A stretch of DNA of 5,007 nucleotides from Planctomycetota bacterium (GTDB taxonomy: Bacteria > Planctomycetota > UBA1135 > UBA2386), in contig QJVU01000416.1 of the NCBI GenBank assembly GCA_003235605.1, positions 1-5,007 on the forward strand. The letters run 5' to 3'. The stretch's first letter is position 1, and every line of letters starts with the position of its first letter. Made by a program: the position numbers and the translations under genes. The notes under the pieces were generated by a model, which was given only the letters and a program-made list of their open reading frames with translations, ran no database searches and was not told the DNA's origin. Below, one piece after another: positions 1 through 5,007 of this stretch.

Positions 1-479
1 GCCTGGACCTCGGACCTGGCTCCTATACCGGGCTACGCATCGCCGTGACGTTTGCGCGTGCGCTGCACGTGTTCCTCGGCATCCCGGTGCTCACCACAAC
101 AAGCCTCCAGCTGATGGCCCTGGCTGCTTGGCGCGAGGGGCTGGTGGCCGAGTCCCGGCGCATTCGTCCGATCCTGGACGCTCGACGCAACCGGTTCCAC
201 AACGCGCTGGTGGAGTTCGCTGATGGCGTGCGGTTGACGGAGCCCCCGCGGGCGGTAGGCCGCGAAGAGCTTCTCGAGAGCATCCGAGCAGACGAGGTAT
301 TGTTGGCCGACGAAGGCCTGCACAAGATGCTCGGTGAGGCCGCGGCGCGTGCGGGGGCTCGTGTCGTGGGGCGCCTGGACTTTGCCGCAGGTCTGCTCTT
401 TGACGCACGGCTGCAGCTCACGAACTGCGCTGGCGACCAGCTGCAACCGCTCTACCTCATGGGCTCGTACGCGGACTAG
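1..479 (+). CDS. tsaB: tRNA threonylcarbamoyladenosine biosynthesis protein TsaB (3' part, start outside window)
   Basis: TsaB is the catalytically inactive ASKHA-fold partner of TsaD. With TsaE they transfer the threonylcarbamoyl group to A37 of ANN-decoding tRNAs in the cytoplasm. Reading from base 3 gives LDLGPGSYTGLRIAV, the TsaB signature loop (family form GPGSFTGLRIG), followed by ALHVFLGIPVLTTTSLQ, which matches the usual 'GIPL.GVSSLEALA' segment. The C-terminus, QPLYLMGSYAD, also has the family's typical 'P.YLR' ending. About 158 codons are visible. TsaB proteins are usually about 220-240 residues, so roughly the first 60-75 residues lie left of the window. A GTG at base 45 falls inside the conserved loop and is not the start. 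The gene ends with TAG at 477-479, facing the histone gene convergently. The frame is intact, with no sign of decay. The identification rests on the motif and the overall layout and is secure. Confidence 0.93.
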   Translation, partial: LDLGPGSYTGLRIAVTFARALHVFLGIPVLTTTSLQLMALAAWREGLVAESRRIRPILDARRNRFHNALVEFADGVRLTEPPRAVGREELLESIRADEVLLADEGLHKMLGEAAARAGARVVGRLDFAAGLLFDARLQLTNCAGDQLQPLYLMGSYAD

Positions 480-509
480 CCACCTGGGCTTGCAGGTCGT
501 ACATGGAAC

Positions 510-548
510 AGCCCACCTGATCTGCGAAAGGTCCAAATCAGATGGGCT
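510..548. terminator. Hairpin in the tsaB/histone convergent gap, likely terminator
   Basis: The arms AGCCCACCTGAT (510-521) and ATCAGATGGGCT (537-548) pair over 12 positions with one C-A mismatch, around a 15-base loop. In minus-strand RNA that mismatch becomes a G-U wobble, so the stem is unbroken for the histone transcript and slightly weaker for the tsaB transcript. There is no clear T-tract on either side, so this is not a textbook intrinsic terminator. The position between two convergent stops supports a termination or 3'-end protection role. A smaller hairpin, ACCTG/CAGGT (482-486 / 493-497), sits directly after the tsaB stop. Confidence 0.5.
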
Positions 549-560
549 TGGCGAGCGCGT

Positions 561-596
561 GACCGGCCCGGGCCCGGTCGGCGGCGCTCCGGCGCC
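561..596. terminator. Two tandem GC-rich hairpins just past the histone stop
   Basis: The first hairpin is GACCGG (561-566) with CCGGTC (574-579), around the loop CCCGGGC. The second is GGCGC (583-587) with GCGCC (592-596), around TCCG. Read on the plus strand, the second is a C(UNCG)G tetraloop, an exceptionally stable RNA fold. They lie 21-56 bases beyond the histone TAA on the minus strand and downstream of tsaB on the plus strand. With the hairpin at 510-548 they form a cluster in a 137-base gap that has no coding signal. There is no U-run, so the terminator role is inferred from position and stability. Confidence 0.45.
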
Positions 597-616
597 TCGA
601 AGGGTCAGCGCAGACC

Positions 617-814
617 TTACAGGTCCTGCGGCTTCAGGGTCTTGCGCTTGTTGGCGAGGGCCCTGGCCTCAGCCTTCTTGATCATGTCGCGCACCACGCC
701 GTCCAGCGCGCCATAGAAGTCCGAGGAGACGTTGCACTTTTTGGTGGCACCTTTCGTGCGGGACTTGGAGATGATGAGCTCCACGGAGCCCGCCTTCTTC
801 TTTCTTGCTGCCAT
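617..814 (-). CDS. Small bacterial histone-fold protein (65 aa, truncated final helix)
   Basis: This probably is a DNA-binding chromatin protein that dimerises through a histone fold on the nucleoid. Visible layout: a basic N-tail (MAARKKK, residues 1-7); a short helix 1 (about 11-22); a loop with C27-N28; helix 2 starting at SSDF (30-33) and running to about residue 54; then NKRKT (55-59) and LKPQDL (60-65), which looks like the beginning of helix 3. The R57-K58-T59 plus D64 spacing (R to D = 7) matches the archaeal histone loop-2 RKT and the 'RD clamp' (R52/D59 in HMfB). There are 12 Lys and 5 Arg against 6 acidic residues, a net charge of about +11. Archaeal histones are usually 65-70 residues with a full helix 3. 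Here the protein stops at D64-L65, as in short bacterial histones of the Bdellovibrio type. The ATG is preceded by AAGGA, and the stop is TAA. It is a single-gene unit, convergent with tsaB and divergent from the AsmA-like gene. The family call comes from motif reading without a search. The alternative is an unrelated small basic protein. Confidence 0.72.
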   Translation of the reverse strand: MAARKKKAGSVELIISKSRTKGATKKCNVSSDFYGALDGVVRDMIKKAEARALANKRKTLKPQDL

Positions 815-825
815 TGTTTTCTTGG

Positions 826-830
826 TCCTT
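826..830 (-). promoter_or_regulatory. Ribosome binding site of the histone gene
   Basis: The minus strand reads AAGGA at 830-826, followed by 11 bases before the ATG at 814-812. This is a partial Shine-Dalgarno with slightly long spacing. It supports the 65-residue start and argues against the overlapping open frame on the same strand (669-881). Confidence 0.55.
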
Positions 831-853
831 ATGACGTTCTGAGCGTGGCACCA

Positions 854-872
854 GCACGCCCCCTCGGCGTGC
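854..872. promoter_or_regulatory. Perfect 7-bp inverted repeat in the presumed histone leader
   Basis: GCACGCC (854-860) and GGCGTGC (866-872) are exact reverse complements around the 5-base spacer CCCTC. The element lies 40-58 bases upstream of the histone ATG. If transcription starts near the candidate promoter at 893-921, this would be a stem-loop in the 5' leader of the mRNA. Otherwise it could be an operator half-site pair. The symmetry is seen directly; the function is inferred. Confidence 0.35.
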
Positions 873-892
873 CGCGCGCAAATAACGCTGGG

Positions 893-921
893 AAGTTTGG
901 GGCCGGTGCTCTTGCTGTCAA
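893..921 (-). promoter_or_regulatory. Candidate sigma-70-type promoter for the histone gene
   Basis: The minus strand has a perfect TTGACA (921-916), a 17-base spacer, and AAACTT (898-893). The -10 hexamer is poor overall but keeps the two most important bases, A at position 2 and T at position 6. The spacing to the ATG would give a leader of about 70-75 bases that includes the inverted repeat at 854-872. The -35 match is good and the -10 is weak, so this is a candidate only. No convincing plus-strand promoter for the AsmA-like gene was found in 815-1091. Confidence 0.3.
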
Positions 922-949
922 CGCAAAAGAATGCACTTTCTGGGCGAAT

Positions 950-985
950 CAGGCCATTTCTCGGCCAAAACAGGCCATCTCGCGG
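950..985. repeat. Imperfect 15-bp direct repeat with 21-bp period in the divergent promoter region
   Basis: CAGGCCATTTCTCGG (950-964) and CAGGCCATCTCGCGG (971-985) match at 13 of 15 positions. Their starts are 21 bases apart, which is two helical turns, so both copies face the same side of the DNA. They lie between the histone gene and the AsmA-like gene, upstream of both starts. This arrangement is typical of a tandem binding site for a regulator, but no regulator can be named from sequence alone. A short CGGG-TTTT-CCCG symmetry (983-994) overlaps the end of the second copy. Confidence 0.45.
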
Positions 986-1091
986 GTTTTCCCGTCACTG
1001 GCCGGTGCAGCCACCCAAGGCCGCCGCAGCTGTGCCGCGCTGATCGACCCTGCGGTGGCGATGGCTAAGATGCCGTCGGGGCCCGACGCCT

Positions 1092-4000
1092 TTGAGCCGC
1101 AAGCGAATCCTGATTCTGTTCCTTGGTTTCTTCACGACCCTTGCCGGCTCCACGTACTTCGCCCTCCACTTCGCGGGTGCCTCCAAAGGGCTGGTGGAGC
1201 GGGCACTGCGACCGTTCTTGCAGACCTTCGAGCTCGCCGACGCCGACGTAAACCTGTCCGAATGGAAGGTGATCCTCCGCAAGTTCAAGATCCCCAACCC
1301 GAACCACCCATCGCGGGGCCCGCTCCTGGCCGTCGAGCGAGTGGACGTGGATCTGGATCCGAACCCGCTTCGCACCGCCGGAACCGTCCGCAAGGTGGCG
1401 CTCACCAAGGTTGGCCTGAACCTGAGCCTCGTCGAGGGTGAGACCCTGGACCTCGACCAGATCCTCAAGACCGCAGGCATCGAGCAGGTCAGCGACGAGC
1501 AGGTTCCGGCGATCACCGTCACAGACTCGGTGGTCCGGCTGCGGCTCGCGCCGAACGAAGACGACATCGTCTTCCGGGACGTGACCGCTCAGCTATTGCC
1601 TGTGGAGAACGAAGACGAGCTCATGCAGCTCTCCGGAACGATGATCTCGCCCATGGGGCAGAGAGTGACCCTCACCGGGAGCTGCAACGTCCGCAAGCAG
1701 GAGTTCAGGGCCATCATGGAGGCGAACGACATCGCGATGGCCCCCCAGCAGGCTGCCTCGTTCAGCAGCGAGGTCGCTCAATACCTCGAGCGAGCGGGTG
1801 TTGCCGGCCTGATCAAGAAGGTTGCTGTGTGGCTGGAACTGCGGGCGCCGGACCCTGAGAACCCCGCGCTCGAACGATTTGGCGGTGGCATCGGTATCGA
1901 CTTCGAGGATCTTCGGGCCACGCCGCCGGACCTCCCCTACCCCGTGAGCGGCGCGCGAGGCAAGGTGTTCTGCAGCACCAGCGACAACGGAACGGTCAAG
2001 TTCCAGGTCGAGAAGCGCGGCATGGACGGCGACCTGCAGGTCGTCGGCAGCATGACCAACTGCTTCTCCAGGCCTTTCGTGCCCAGCTACAACATCAGGC
2101 TCGATGCCCGCGAGGTGCTGATCGGTCCCCGACTGGAGCATGCCCTGAACCAGCCGGAGCTCCCGGAACCCATGCAGGTCTGGCGGGCTTTCGCTCCCTC
2201 CGCAGGTCGGCTGAGCGGCCGGCTGCATTTCTGGAACGAGCGGCCTGGCGAGAGCCCGCAGGTCTCGGCGGACCTGGACCTGCTGGGGGTCTCCGCGAAG
2301 TTCGAGGGCTTCCCACCGGGGCCGGGCGGGCGGCGCATCTGCTTTCCCTACCCCTTGACCAACATCAGGGGTCGCGTGCAGGTGCGGCCCGATGGGATCA
2401 CCCTCTCGGGCCTGAGCGCGGAGGCCGGCGAGGGGCGGATCCAGATGACCGGCAACCTGATTCCGTCGAACGGCCGGATCTTGCCTGCGGTAGACATCGA
2501 GTGCCGGGCCGTTGCATTCTCCCCACAGTTGCGAGATGCCCTCGAGGCCATGCTGGAGGGGGGCGGGGCAATCTACGACGAGTACCAGCCGCAGGGCAGC
2601 ACCGACGTGTCCTTGCAACTGCGGCCCAAGGACGGCCGGGTCCGCTTCGCTGCAAGCATGAGCCCCCTGAGGGCGAGCATGACCTACGCGGGGTTCCCCT
2701 ACCGCGTCGACGGCATCCGCGGCGTGGTCACGATCACGGAGGAAGGCGTCCGGATGAACGTCCACGGCCATTGCCGCGCCGGCGCGGTAGCCGTGAATGG
2801 ACGGTTTCGCTTCGGCTCCGAGAAAGGTCTCCAGGGGTCAGGACTCCACTCGGAGCTCTGGATCAACGCCACCGGCCTTCCCCTGGACAGCGAGATGAAA
2901 CGGGCAGTCGCCACGATGTCGCAGATGGCTGGGAGGGCCTGGGACTTCTTCTCGCCGCGTGGAACAGCGGACTGTGAGGTGACGCTCTGGAAGGGGGCTT
3001 CGGATTCCGAATTCGACTACGACGCGCGCCTCAGAGCACATGGCGTGTCCGCGCTCATGCAGGCGCCGCAGGTCCCCATGGAGGACCTGGAGGGCGACAT
3101 CTTCTTCCATGGCACCGGGACAAGCCTCCGTTGCGACGTCAGCTCACTGCGCGGCCAGATCAACAACGGTCCGAACACCATCCCGGCGAGCATCCTGTTT
3201 CACGGCACGGGCCAGATGGAAGGGGACAAGAGCCGGTTGAACCTGACGAGCATCATCCGGCGCATACGTCTGACCGACGACCTGGCCAGCGCCCTCGACA
3301 AGGCAGAGGTCATCGAGTCGAAGACCTGGGATCTTCTCGCACCCGATGGCTATGTCGACGTCATCGGTCGCCTGCAGAAAGGCTACGACGACAAGGACAT
3401 GCAGCAGTCCTACCGCATCCGCCTCCAGGACGTTCACTCTTCCTGTCGCCTGCTGCCCGGCAAGGCCACCGACTTCAGCGGTGATGTCGCCGTCGAGAAG
3501 GGTGTCGTGAGCTTCCAGAACATCCGCTTCAAGATCGACGGCTCACCGATCCTGTGCACGCGCGGGTCCGCATCCTATGCAGACGGGGTCTCCACGGTCG
3601 AGGCAGCGCTCTTCGCGGAGAGCTACCAGGTCGACAAGCGCCTCGCCAGGATCATGAGCGGGCCGACGCGCCAGATCTATCTCGACAGCAGCATGAGCGG
3701 CGACGTGAAGATCACCGACCTGAAGCTCACGTTCCGCTTCCCCGACGCCGGGCCCAGCTTCGAGACCATGTTCTCAGGACAGCTGGTGGCCAACAACCTC
3801 CAGCTTGGCCTCGCCATCCCGATCCAGCACATCAACGGCATCGTGACGCTCAAGGAGGGCGTCATCGACGAGAAGGGCGGGCACGCCACGGGAAGCGTCA
3901 GCGAGGCCAACGCCATCATCGACCAACACCAGGTGCATGGTGTCTCCTGTTCGTTCGCGTTCGACCAGGACAAGGTGGAAATCAGCGACCTTCGTTTGCG

Positions 4001-4646
4001 CCTGCACTCCGGGCGCGTCGAGGGCAACGGGCCGAACAACCTCGCCCTCCGCCACGAGTTTGCCGGTAGCGGCAACCTGCGGATGTCCCTTCGCTGGGAC
4101 GGGGTCAGCCTCACCGAGACAATGCGCGCCAGCGGCATGTCGCTGGCGAGCAAGTACCAGGGCAACCTGTCGGGCGACATCGACGTGCAGGAGCTGCGGG
4201 GGAGCAACCTGCTGGACATCCGGGCCAGCGGCAACGTGGCGATCAACAACGGCAACCTCGGGCGGGTGCCGGTATTCTCGACCATCTACGACTACCTGAA
4301 GCCGGATCAGCGTCCCCGCTTCTCTTCGGGCCGGCTCAAGTTCACGGTGGCCGAACGAACTGTGGTGCTGAGCCAGATCAAGCTCAAGTCCAGCATCCTG
4401 GACGTGGACGGCAGGGGCAAGGTCACGCTGGATGGCTACTCCGATATCCTCCTGAGCCTGCGCGCCTTCGGCGGCGGCATGGACAGGTTCGTGAGGTCGA
4501 TCATCGAGTTCCAGATCTATGGCTACCTCCGCGAGCCCAAGACCCGACCTGTGTGGCTCGGGCAGCGACGGTCCGGTCGCCGCCTCCTGTCGCCGCTGCC
4601 GCCGGTGAACCCGAACGAGCTGCAAGCGGGCGGAATCCGCGAATGA
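1092..4646 (+). CDS. Large membrane-anchored AsmA/TamB-like protein with internal repeats (1184 aa)
   Basis: This is probably an inner-membrane-anchored periplasmic protein of the AsmA/YhdP/TamB type, a group implicated in phospholipid movement to the outer membrane and in envelope homeostasis. The N-terminus has a basic pair (R3-K4) and a hydrophobic stretch at about 5-27 (ILILFLGFFTTLAGSTYFAL), a signal anchor. The body is almost entirely predicted beta strand. A 'PY-x4-I-x-G-x-V' turn recurs with its Gly at residues 290, 427, 544, 668, 797 and 916. A second motif, 'W/Y-D-x-x-x-P-x-G', recurs at 364, 495, 617, 746 and 863. Residues about 1015-1125 form an AsmA-type C-terminal module (GNVAINNGNLGRVPVFSTIY, then DVDGRGKVTLDG). 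A polar, Arg/Pro-containing tail follows. The start is TTG at 1092: the frame is closed by TGA at 1041-1043, no ATG or GTG lies between, and the next GTG would remove the membrane segment. The Shine-Dalgarno is weak. The length is close to YhdP (about 1270). The stop overlaps manC. The superfamily is fairly sure; the exact subfamily is not. Confidence 0.82.
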   Translation: MSRKRILILFLGFFTTLAGSTYFALHFAGASKGLVERALRPFLQTFELADADVNLSEWKVILRKFKIPNPNHPSRGPLLAVERVDVDLDPNPLRTAGTVRKVALTKVGLNLSLVEGETLDLDQILKTAGIEQVSDEQVPAITVTDSVVRLRLAPNEDDIVFRDVTAQLLPVENEDELMQLSGTMISPMGQRVTLTGSCNVRKQEFRAIMEANDIAMAPQQAASFSSEVAQYLERAGVAGLIKKVAVWLELRAPDPENPALERFGGGIGIDFEDLRATPPDLPYPVSGARGKVFCSTSDNGTVKFQVEKRGMDGDLQVVGSMTNCFSRPFVPSYNIRLDAREVLIGPRLEHALNQPELPEPMQVWRAFAPSAGRLSGRLHFWNERPGESPQVSADLDLLGVSAKFEGFPPGPGGRRICFPYPLTNIRGRVQVRPDGITLSGLSAEAGEGRIQMTGNLIPSNGRILPAVDIECRAVAFSPQLRDALEAMLEGGGAIYDEYQPQGSTDVSLQLRPKDGRVRFAASMSPLRASMTYAGFPYRVDGIRGVVTITEEGVRMNVHGHCRAGAVAVNGRFRFGSEKGLQGSGLHSELWINATGLPLDSEMKRAVATMSQMAGRAWDFFSPRGTADCEVTLWKGASDSEFDYDARLRAHGVSALMQAPQVPMEDLEGDIFFHGTGTSLRCDVSSLRGQINNGPNTIPASILFHGTGQMEGDKSRLNLTSIIRRIRLTDDLASALDKAEVIESKTWDLLAPDGYVDVIGRLQKGYDDKDMQQSYRIRLQDVHSSCRLLPGKATDFSGDVAVEKGVVSFQNIRFKIDGSPILCTRGSASYADGVSTVEAALFAESYQVDKRLARIMSGPTRQIYLDSSMSGDVKITDLKLTFRFPDAGPSFETMFSGQLVANNLQLGLAIPIQHINGIVTLKEGVIDEKGGHATGSVSEANAIIDQHQVHGVSCSFAFDQDKVEISDLRLRLHSGRVEGNGPNNLALRHEFAGSGNLRMSLRWDGVSLTETMRASGMSLASKYQGNLSGDIDVQELRGSNLLDIRASGNVAINNGNLGRVPVFSTIYDYLKPDQRPRFSSGRLKFTVAERTVVLSQIKLKSSILDVDGRGKVTLDGYSDILLSLRAFGGGMDRFVRSIIEFQIYGYLREPKTRPVWLGQRRSGRRLLSPLPPVNPNELQAGGIRE

Positions 4647-5007
4647 CCCTGCATGTCGTGATCATGGCGGGGGGTGCCGGAACCCGCTTCTGGCCGGCCA
4701 GCCGTCGCTCGCGGCCGAAGCAGTTCCTGCCCCTGGCTCGAGGCCGGCCCCTGCTCCAGGACACCATCGACCGCGTTCGTGACGTCAGCGGTACCGAGAA
4801 AACCTGGATCGTCACCAACCCCGAACAGGCGACGTCGCTTCCCCAGGTGCTCGAGGGCTTCCCCGAAGACCATGTCATCGTGGAACCGGAAGCCAGGGAC
4901 ACCGCCCCCTGCGTGGCCCTGGCCACCGCCACGATCGAAGCCAGAGAGCCCGGCGCCACCATCGCGGTGATGCCCGCTGACCATGTGATCGAGTCGGGGG
5001 ATACCCT
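4643..5007 (+). CDS. manC: Mannose-1-phosphate guanylyltransferase (5' part, runs off window)
   Basis: This enzyme makes GDP-mannose from GTP and mannose-1-phosphate in the cytoplasm, feeding lipopolysaccharide, exopolysaccharide or glycoprotein synthesis. The 121 visible codons carry the sugar-nucleotidyltransferase fold signature near the N-terminus: MAGGAGTRFWPASR (8-21) followed by PKQFL (25-29), which is typical of ManC rather than of glucose-1-phosphate enzymes. EPEARDTAPC (81-90) corresponds to the family's 'EP..RNTAPA' (here D86 replaces the common Asn), and MPADH (110-114) is the 'PADH' metal/nucleotide motif. The ATG at 4643 overlaps the TGA of the AsmA-like gene (ATGA), indicating translational coupling. 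A weak GGCGGA sits 8 bases upstream. The catalytic remainder, and any C-terminal isomerase domain that would show a bifunctional enzyme, lie outside the window. A related mannose/glucose nucleotidyltransferase with other specificity cannot be excluded. Confidence 0.92.
   Translation, partial: MTLHVVIMAGGAGTRFWPASRRSRPKQFLPLARGRPLLQDTIDRVRDVSGTEKTWIVTNPEQATSLPQVLEGFPEDHVIVEPEARDTAPCVALATATIEAREPGATIAVMPADHVIESGDT

Follow-up and report, generated by a model that had tools for sequence, protein, structure and literature searches.

What kind of protein is encoded by a 65-codon open reading frame (ORF) in a stretch of Planctomycetota DNA, and what could such a protein do on a bacterial chromosome? 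The ORF lies in a 5,007-nucleotide stretch (contig QJVU01000416.1 of assembly GCA_003235605.1, positions 1 to 5,007, referred to hereafter as the window), and an initial annotation had read it as a single-domain bacterial histone with Bdellovibrio Bd0055 as its reference relative. Judged by sequence comparison and a modelled fold, the product is a true bacterial histone. Sequence evidence points to a face-to-face (FtF), tetramer-type histone more than to a relative of Bd0055, and the protein probably forms a homotetramer that wraps ~60 bp of DNA beside HU/IHF. The features of the gene are as follows.

617..814, minus strand: histone gene, 65 aa, predicted FtF type with a short helix α3 (homologues, profiles, AlphaFold2 monomer, fold matches)
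746..814, minus strand: basic N-terminal tail and helix α1 (residues 1–23, with α1 predicted at 17–23; K17, R19, K21; from model and alignment)
638..664, minus strand: codons R51–T59 (RALANKRKT), holding the FtF tetramer and loop L2 residues R51, N55, R57 and T59 (from alignment, with roles taken from PMC12701072 and PMC11390915)
617..625, minus strand: codons D64 and L65 and the stop TAA; D-[LI] closes the chain in 80/80 relatives extracted from genomes
826–830, minus strand: Shine–Dalgarno-like AAGGA, read from the sequence, 11 nt 5′ of the ATG (a rather long spacing)

A bacterial histone and its type

The AlphaFold2 monomer (mean pLDDT 85.9; the fold searches did not draw on a previous run, built from 42 close relatives, whose N-terminus was poor at pLDDT 68.8) has predicted helices at residues 17–23 and 31–54, and a three-residue turn at 62–64. 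The top rows of fold searches with this model are prokaryotic histones of solved structure (HTkC, HLp and HBb), matched across residues 10–65; together with profile matches to solved histones, these bear out the single-domain histone of the initial annotation. The top fold matches are α3 histones, and the three-residue α3 of the model falls within the 3–4 residues of FtF α3 histones; the ~10-residue α3 of archaeal nucleosomal histones is absent, the chain ending at residue 65.

FtF histones are defined by a predicted two-sided tetramer and conserve R48, N52, R54, T56 and D61, whereas bacterial-dimer histones are said to be without R48 and N52 (PMC11390915). In the Leptospira protein HLp, the tetramer interface includes R49, N53 and R55, and the clamp is formed by R55 and D62 (PMC12701072). 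The window protein has R51, N55, R57, T59 and D64 at the FtF positions, identical in 100/100 aligned rows, and so combines the RxTxxxxD motif with equivalents of R48 and N52. With these five residues, the sequence fits FtF histones and not bacterial-dimer histones. Profile searches likewise place FtF histones ahead of the dimer and nucleosomal types: a profile that includes 29 rows from an archaeal search ranks HTkC first (1.4e-12), followed by HLp (4.5e-8), HBb (7e-4) and HmvA (0.011), and a profile of close relatives only retains HTkC (3.2e-7) and HLp (4.9e-4), with HBb unlisted up to E 10.

The best match by both profile and Foldseek is HTkC of Thermococcus kodakarensis (PDB 9F2C). The five FtF residues also occur in all 29 rows found with a haloarchaeal query (haloarchaeal FtF histones, e.g. 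H. volcanii D4GZE0), and one haloarchaeal plasmid protein is 50% identical to the window histone over 52 residues. Relative to these archaeal proteins, the window protein is bacterial and has a longer basic N-terminal tail, with basic residues at R19, K25 and K26; at these positions A (24/29), D (20/29) and D (22/29) prevail in the haloarchaeal-query rows. HLp of Leptospira perolatii (PDB 9QT0–9QT2) is 29–30% identical by structural alignment, and HBb/Bd0055 of Bdellovibrio bacteriovorus (PDB 8CMP, 8FVX) 23–24%. The nearest characterised relatives by sequence are thus the archaeal HTkC and the Leptospira HLp, both FtF histones, and Bd0055 is displaced as the reference.

Several observations weigh against assignment as a wrapping FtF histone. 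No Foldseek match to the model reaches E 0.001, and VIA-align scores HBb and HLp level (7.5 and 7.4), so that FtF and dimer types cannot be told apart by the monomer fold. By offset, the HLp interface residues S52, T61 and F63 are replaced by A54, Q63 and L65. The 80 genome loci were chosen by patterns covering NKRKTL and LIISKSRT, which favours the apparent conservation of those residues, and 55 of the 100 alignment rows are such loci (29 rows from the archaeal search and 15 from the database were not picked by pattern). Finally, HU/IHF family proteins are encoded in 50/50 carrier genomes searched, and a histone of this type therefore need not be the main organiser of the chromosome.

The level structural scores leave room for a bacterial-dimer histone like HBb/Bd0055, one that would stay a dimer and bend or coat DNA with no wrapping. 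We regard this as unlikely, given the third place of HBb in the broader profile search, its absence from the search with close relatives only, and the invariant R51 and N55 at the positions of the R48/N52 pair that HBb-type dimers are said to lack (PMC11390915).

Proposed DNA wrapping beside HU/IHF

HLp is reported to wrap ~60 bp of DNA (PMC12701072), and the window histone probably works in the same way. Two chains would form a handshake dimer, and two dimers would join at both ends to give a torus-shaped homotetramer, with the dimer–dimer contacts made by the end of α2, loop L2 and the short α3 (R51, N55, R57 and the C-terminal carboxylate). DNA would be wrapped nonspecifically, at ~60 bp per tetramer as in HLp, on a basic rim composed of α1 (K17, R19, K21, K25) and the RKT loop; the basic tail would add electrostatic binding, and the histone would act as a second chromatin protein alongside HU/IHF. 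We infer dimerization, tetramer formation, wrapping, abundance and the role in vivo, the tetramer and wrapping from homology; the histone is likely to act in chromatin by wrapping DNA.

The candidate DNA contacts are well conserved. The HLp contact lysines K15, K17 and K21 align with R19, K21 and K25 of the window protein; K17, R19 and K21 occur in 71/71 bacterial rows, and K or R at position 25 in 54/71. C27 is common (also 54/71) and not required. In the 80 relatives, 1–51 residues stand ahead of the last 54; the net charge of this tail is +6 at the median and is not positive in 3/80. Seven loci (L029, L031, L038, L043, L045, L049 and L066) carry 39–51-residue Lys/Ala-rich tails that resemble H1; PF07382 (HC2) is matched by one of the 100 members of set A2.

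The histone fold could instead have been reused beyond bulk chromatin, e.g. in local regulation or RNA binding. The retention of HU/IHF in every carrier searched and the precedent of minor histone families, some of which seem no longer to bind DNA (PMC11390915), favour reuse, whereas the conserved basic α1 residues, the mostly positive tails and the stand-alone gene, oriented against its neighbours, argue against it; we consider it quite improbable.

The window histone itself has no match to PF00216 (HU/IHF) in a Pfam scan up to E 10, and the universal presence of HU/IHF among the carriers searched differs from Leptospira, which is reported to be without HU. The carriers also often encode topoisomerase VI, subunit B being found (E ≤ 1e-30) in 42/50. 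At E < 1e-40, among 197 Planctomycetota genomes, it occurs in 58/79 histone-positive vs 41/118 histone-negative genomes, counts not corrected for ancestry. Among 189 Myxococcota it is present in 27/39 genomes with a strong histone match vs 11/150 others, including 0/21 of those with a weak histone match only. On an rpoB tree of 100 Myxococcota, the histone accounts for one change and one independent pair remains, so the association has no support beyond shared ancestry in this phylum, and we rejected it there as evidence of a functional link. In one Latescibacterota chromosome, a topoisomerase VI subunit B gene (L001:2610–4871, minus strand) lies ~1.1 kb upstream of the histone; topoisomerase receives a single mention, for IHF histones, in PMC11390915.

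The gene and its neighbourhood

The ORF proposed at 617..814 is present and encodes 65 residues; its strand, which the initial annotation left unnamed, is minus (ATG at 814–812, stop TAA at 619–617), and the plus-strand reading of the same interval is unrelated to the histone. The charge of about +11 and the R57/D64 numbering given there were reproduced (net charge +11; R51, N55, R57, D64 and C27 checked). A consensus scan of 440–1150 returned neither promoter-like nor terminator-like sites, the leader folds slightly better than shuffled sequences (z −1.95), and no Rfam family matched.

A search of 5.8 billion proteins gave 1213 candidate homologues, 1212 of them at E ≤ 1e-3, the best with E 8.6e-31, 95% identity and 100% query coverage; 17 among 120 homologues listed bear the source name “histone H3/H4”. 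The ORF ends in the same way in all 80 extracted loci and is 62–73 aa long in 59/80, with starts picked by script (those of L014 and L077 do not begin at ATG, GTG or TTG). A family-model check suggested at the outset did return PF00808, weakly (residues 40–65, 13.5 bits vs a curated cut-off of 21.4), so Pfam alone would miss this histone. A match to NCBIfam BsmA (15.3 bits vs a cut-off of 100) and Secretin_N_2 matches in 15/42 relatives were judged to be chance. That the ORF itself arose by chance on the antisense strand, as its shortness, the many spurious ORFs of this GC-rich region and the sub-threshold Pfam score might suggest, is refuted to the point of being negligible by the 1212 homologues, the identical ending in 80/80 loci and the confident fold.

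The remaining features of the window flank the histone gene.

3..479, plus strand: tsaB, partial (TIGR03725, 71.4 bits vs cut-off 69.3; a neighbour in many Planctomycetota loci)
510..548, minus strand: hairpin (arms 510–523 and 535–548) in the interval where tsaB and the histone gene converge (z −3.62 for 480–620)
1092..4646, plus strand: AsmA/YhdP-like protein, 1184 aa, divergent neighbour (weak PF05170 and PF13116, both under cut-off; position conserved)
4643..5007, plus strand: manC-like mannose-1-phosphate guanylyltransferase, partial at the window end (PF00483, 1.7e-19; TIGR01479, 87.2 bits, under cut-off)

The hairpin is possibly the terminator of the histone transcript; on the minus strand it relies on G–U pairing and has no T tract, and the consensus scan did not call it. 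The 1184-aa protein matches no Pfam or NCBIfam family above the curated cut-off. Neighbours were counted by tblastn (E ≤ 1e-3), 41 loci being titled Planctomycetota. Among these, tsaB adjoins the histone in 16 of the 36 loci that extend far enough downstream, the AsmA-like gene in 22/32 and both in 7/28, and manC lies on the expected strand in 25/31. Neither tsaB (0/28) nor the AsmA-like gene (0/25) adjoins the histone in the other named groups, and in loci with no phylum in the title the values are 2/3 and 2/4. The best matches to the AsmA-like protein come from L013, L025, L003 and L054, all titled Planctomycetota; L003, L013 and L025 also fall with the window histone in a weakly supported fork of the histone tree, where they are joined by rows from Eisenbacteria, Latescibacterota, Krumholzibacteriia and Myxococcota. 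The uncultured host is most probably a planctomycete, a reading that follows from the gene order and not from the histone tree. The tsaB/AsmA-like/manC setting differs from that of HLp, whose gene neighbours are SMC/MAP. In two Methylomirabilota loci examined, a PBP1A gene precedes the histone.

Distribution, inheritance and meaning

The initial annotation noted that true bacterial histones have been characterised in only a few lineages. Histones of the present kind are more widespread: record titles assign the relatives to nine phylum-level groups, and a published survey (PMC11390915) had already listed FtF histones for Planctomycetota and Myxococcota. Of 142 pattern matches in the GTDB genome set, 136 encode a relative. 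We kept 80 loci, nearly all from metagenome-assembled genomes, whose titles can be wrong (the Latescibacterota record and a “Deltaproteobacteria” one carry chromosome titles). By title, 75/80 fall into the nine groups (Planctomycetota 41, Myxococcota 17, Methylomirabilota 8, Pseudomonadota 3, Eiseniibacteriota 2, and one each in Gemmatimonadota, Krumholzibacteriota, Latescibacterota and Acidobacteriota) and five carry no group. The persistence of histone genes in Planctomycetota has been noted (PMC10627809), and our literature search found no paper pairing “histone fold” with “Methylomirabilota”.

Histone matches (E ≤ 1e-3) occur in 79/197 genomes of the Planctomycetota sample (12 over 75 bits, 67 under 50) and in 60/189 of the Myxococcota sample (39 over 80 bits). 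Inheritance was examined in Myxococcota, where the rpoB FastTree placed 100/189 genomes (27/39 strong carriers and 73/150 others; 12 strong carriers with no usable listed rpoB row and 77 other genomes lie off the tree). The 27 placed strong carriers form a single clade with support 100, which contains 0/73 of the other placed genomes; such a clade fits vertical inheritance and retention. Of the 50 carrier genomes, chosen from the 80 loci, 45 have one histone match and five a weaker second. One genome of the Myxococcota sample holds two near-identical histone copies fused in frame (141 aa; L182:220–645, contig G312:C50, minus strand), a doublet that may be natural or made by assembly.

A mobile origin in a virus or plasmid was rejected. 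Phages gave no histone match, 35 viral stretches matched a pattern and none encodes a relative, and the 75 matching plasmid records are all below 60% identity, the 20 listed being all haloarchaeal.

The window thus yields a sound finding of modest weight, a true bacterial histone of a known family, and one more member for the FtF group that a survey had already placed in Planctomycetota and Myxococcota (PMC11390915). It is possible, though we put this only tentatively, that the window histone belongs to a bacterial FtF subfamily that is both large and tightly conserved (signature LIISKSRTK...CNVSxDFYxALD...RAxxNKRKTLxPxDL). Whole clades of Planctomycetota, Myxococcota and Methylomirabilota would have inherited it vertically, and its members would form nucleosome-like particles in cells that also retain HU. 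If so, two chromatin systems would share one chromosome, some planctomycete members having long H1-like Lys/Ala tails. In the literature consulted, bacterial FtF histones have been studied in the laboratory in Leptospira, which is reported to be without HU; since every carrier searched here retains HU/IHF, this subfamily would offer a chance to find out what wrapping by a histone contributes to a normal bacterial nucleoid, and whether the histone has an archaeal source or is ancestral.
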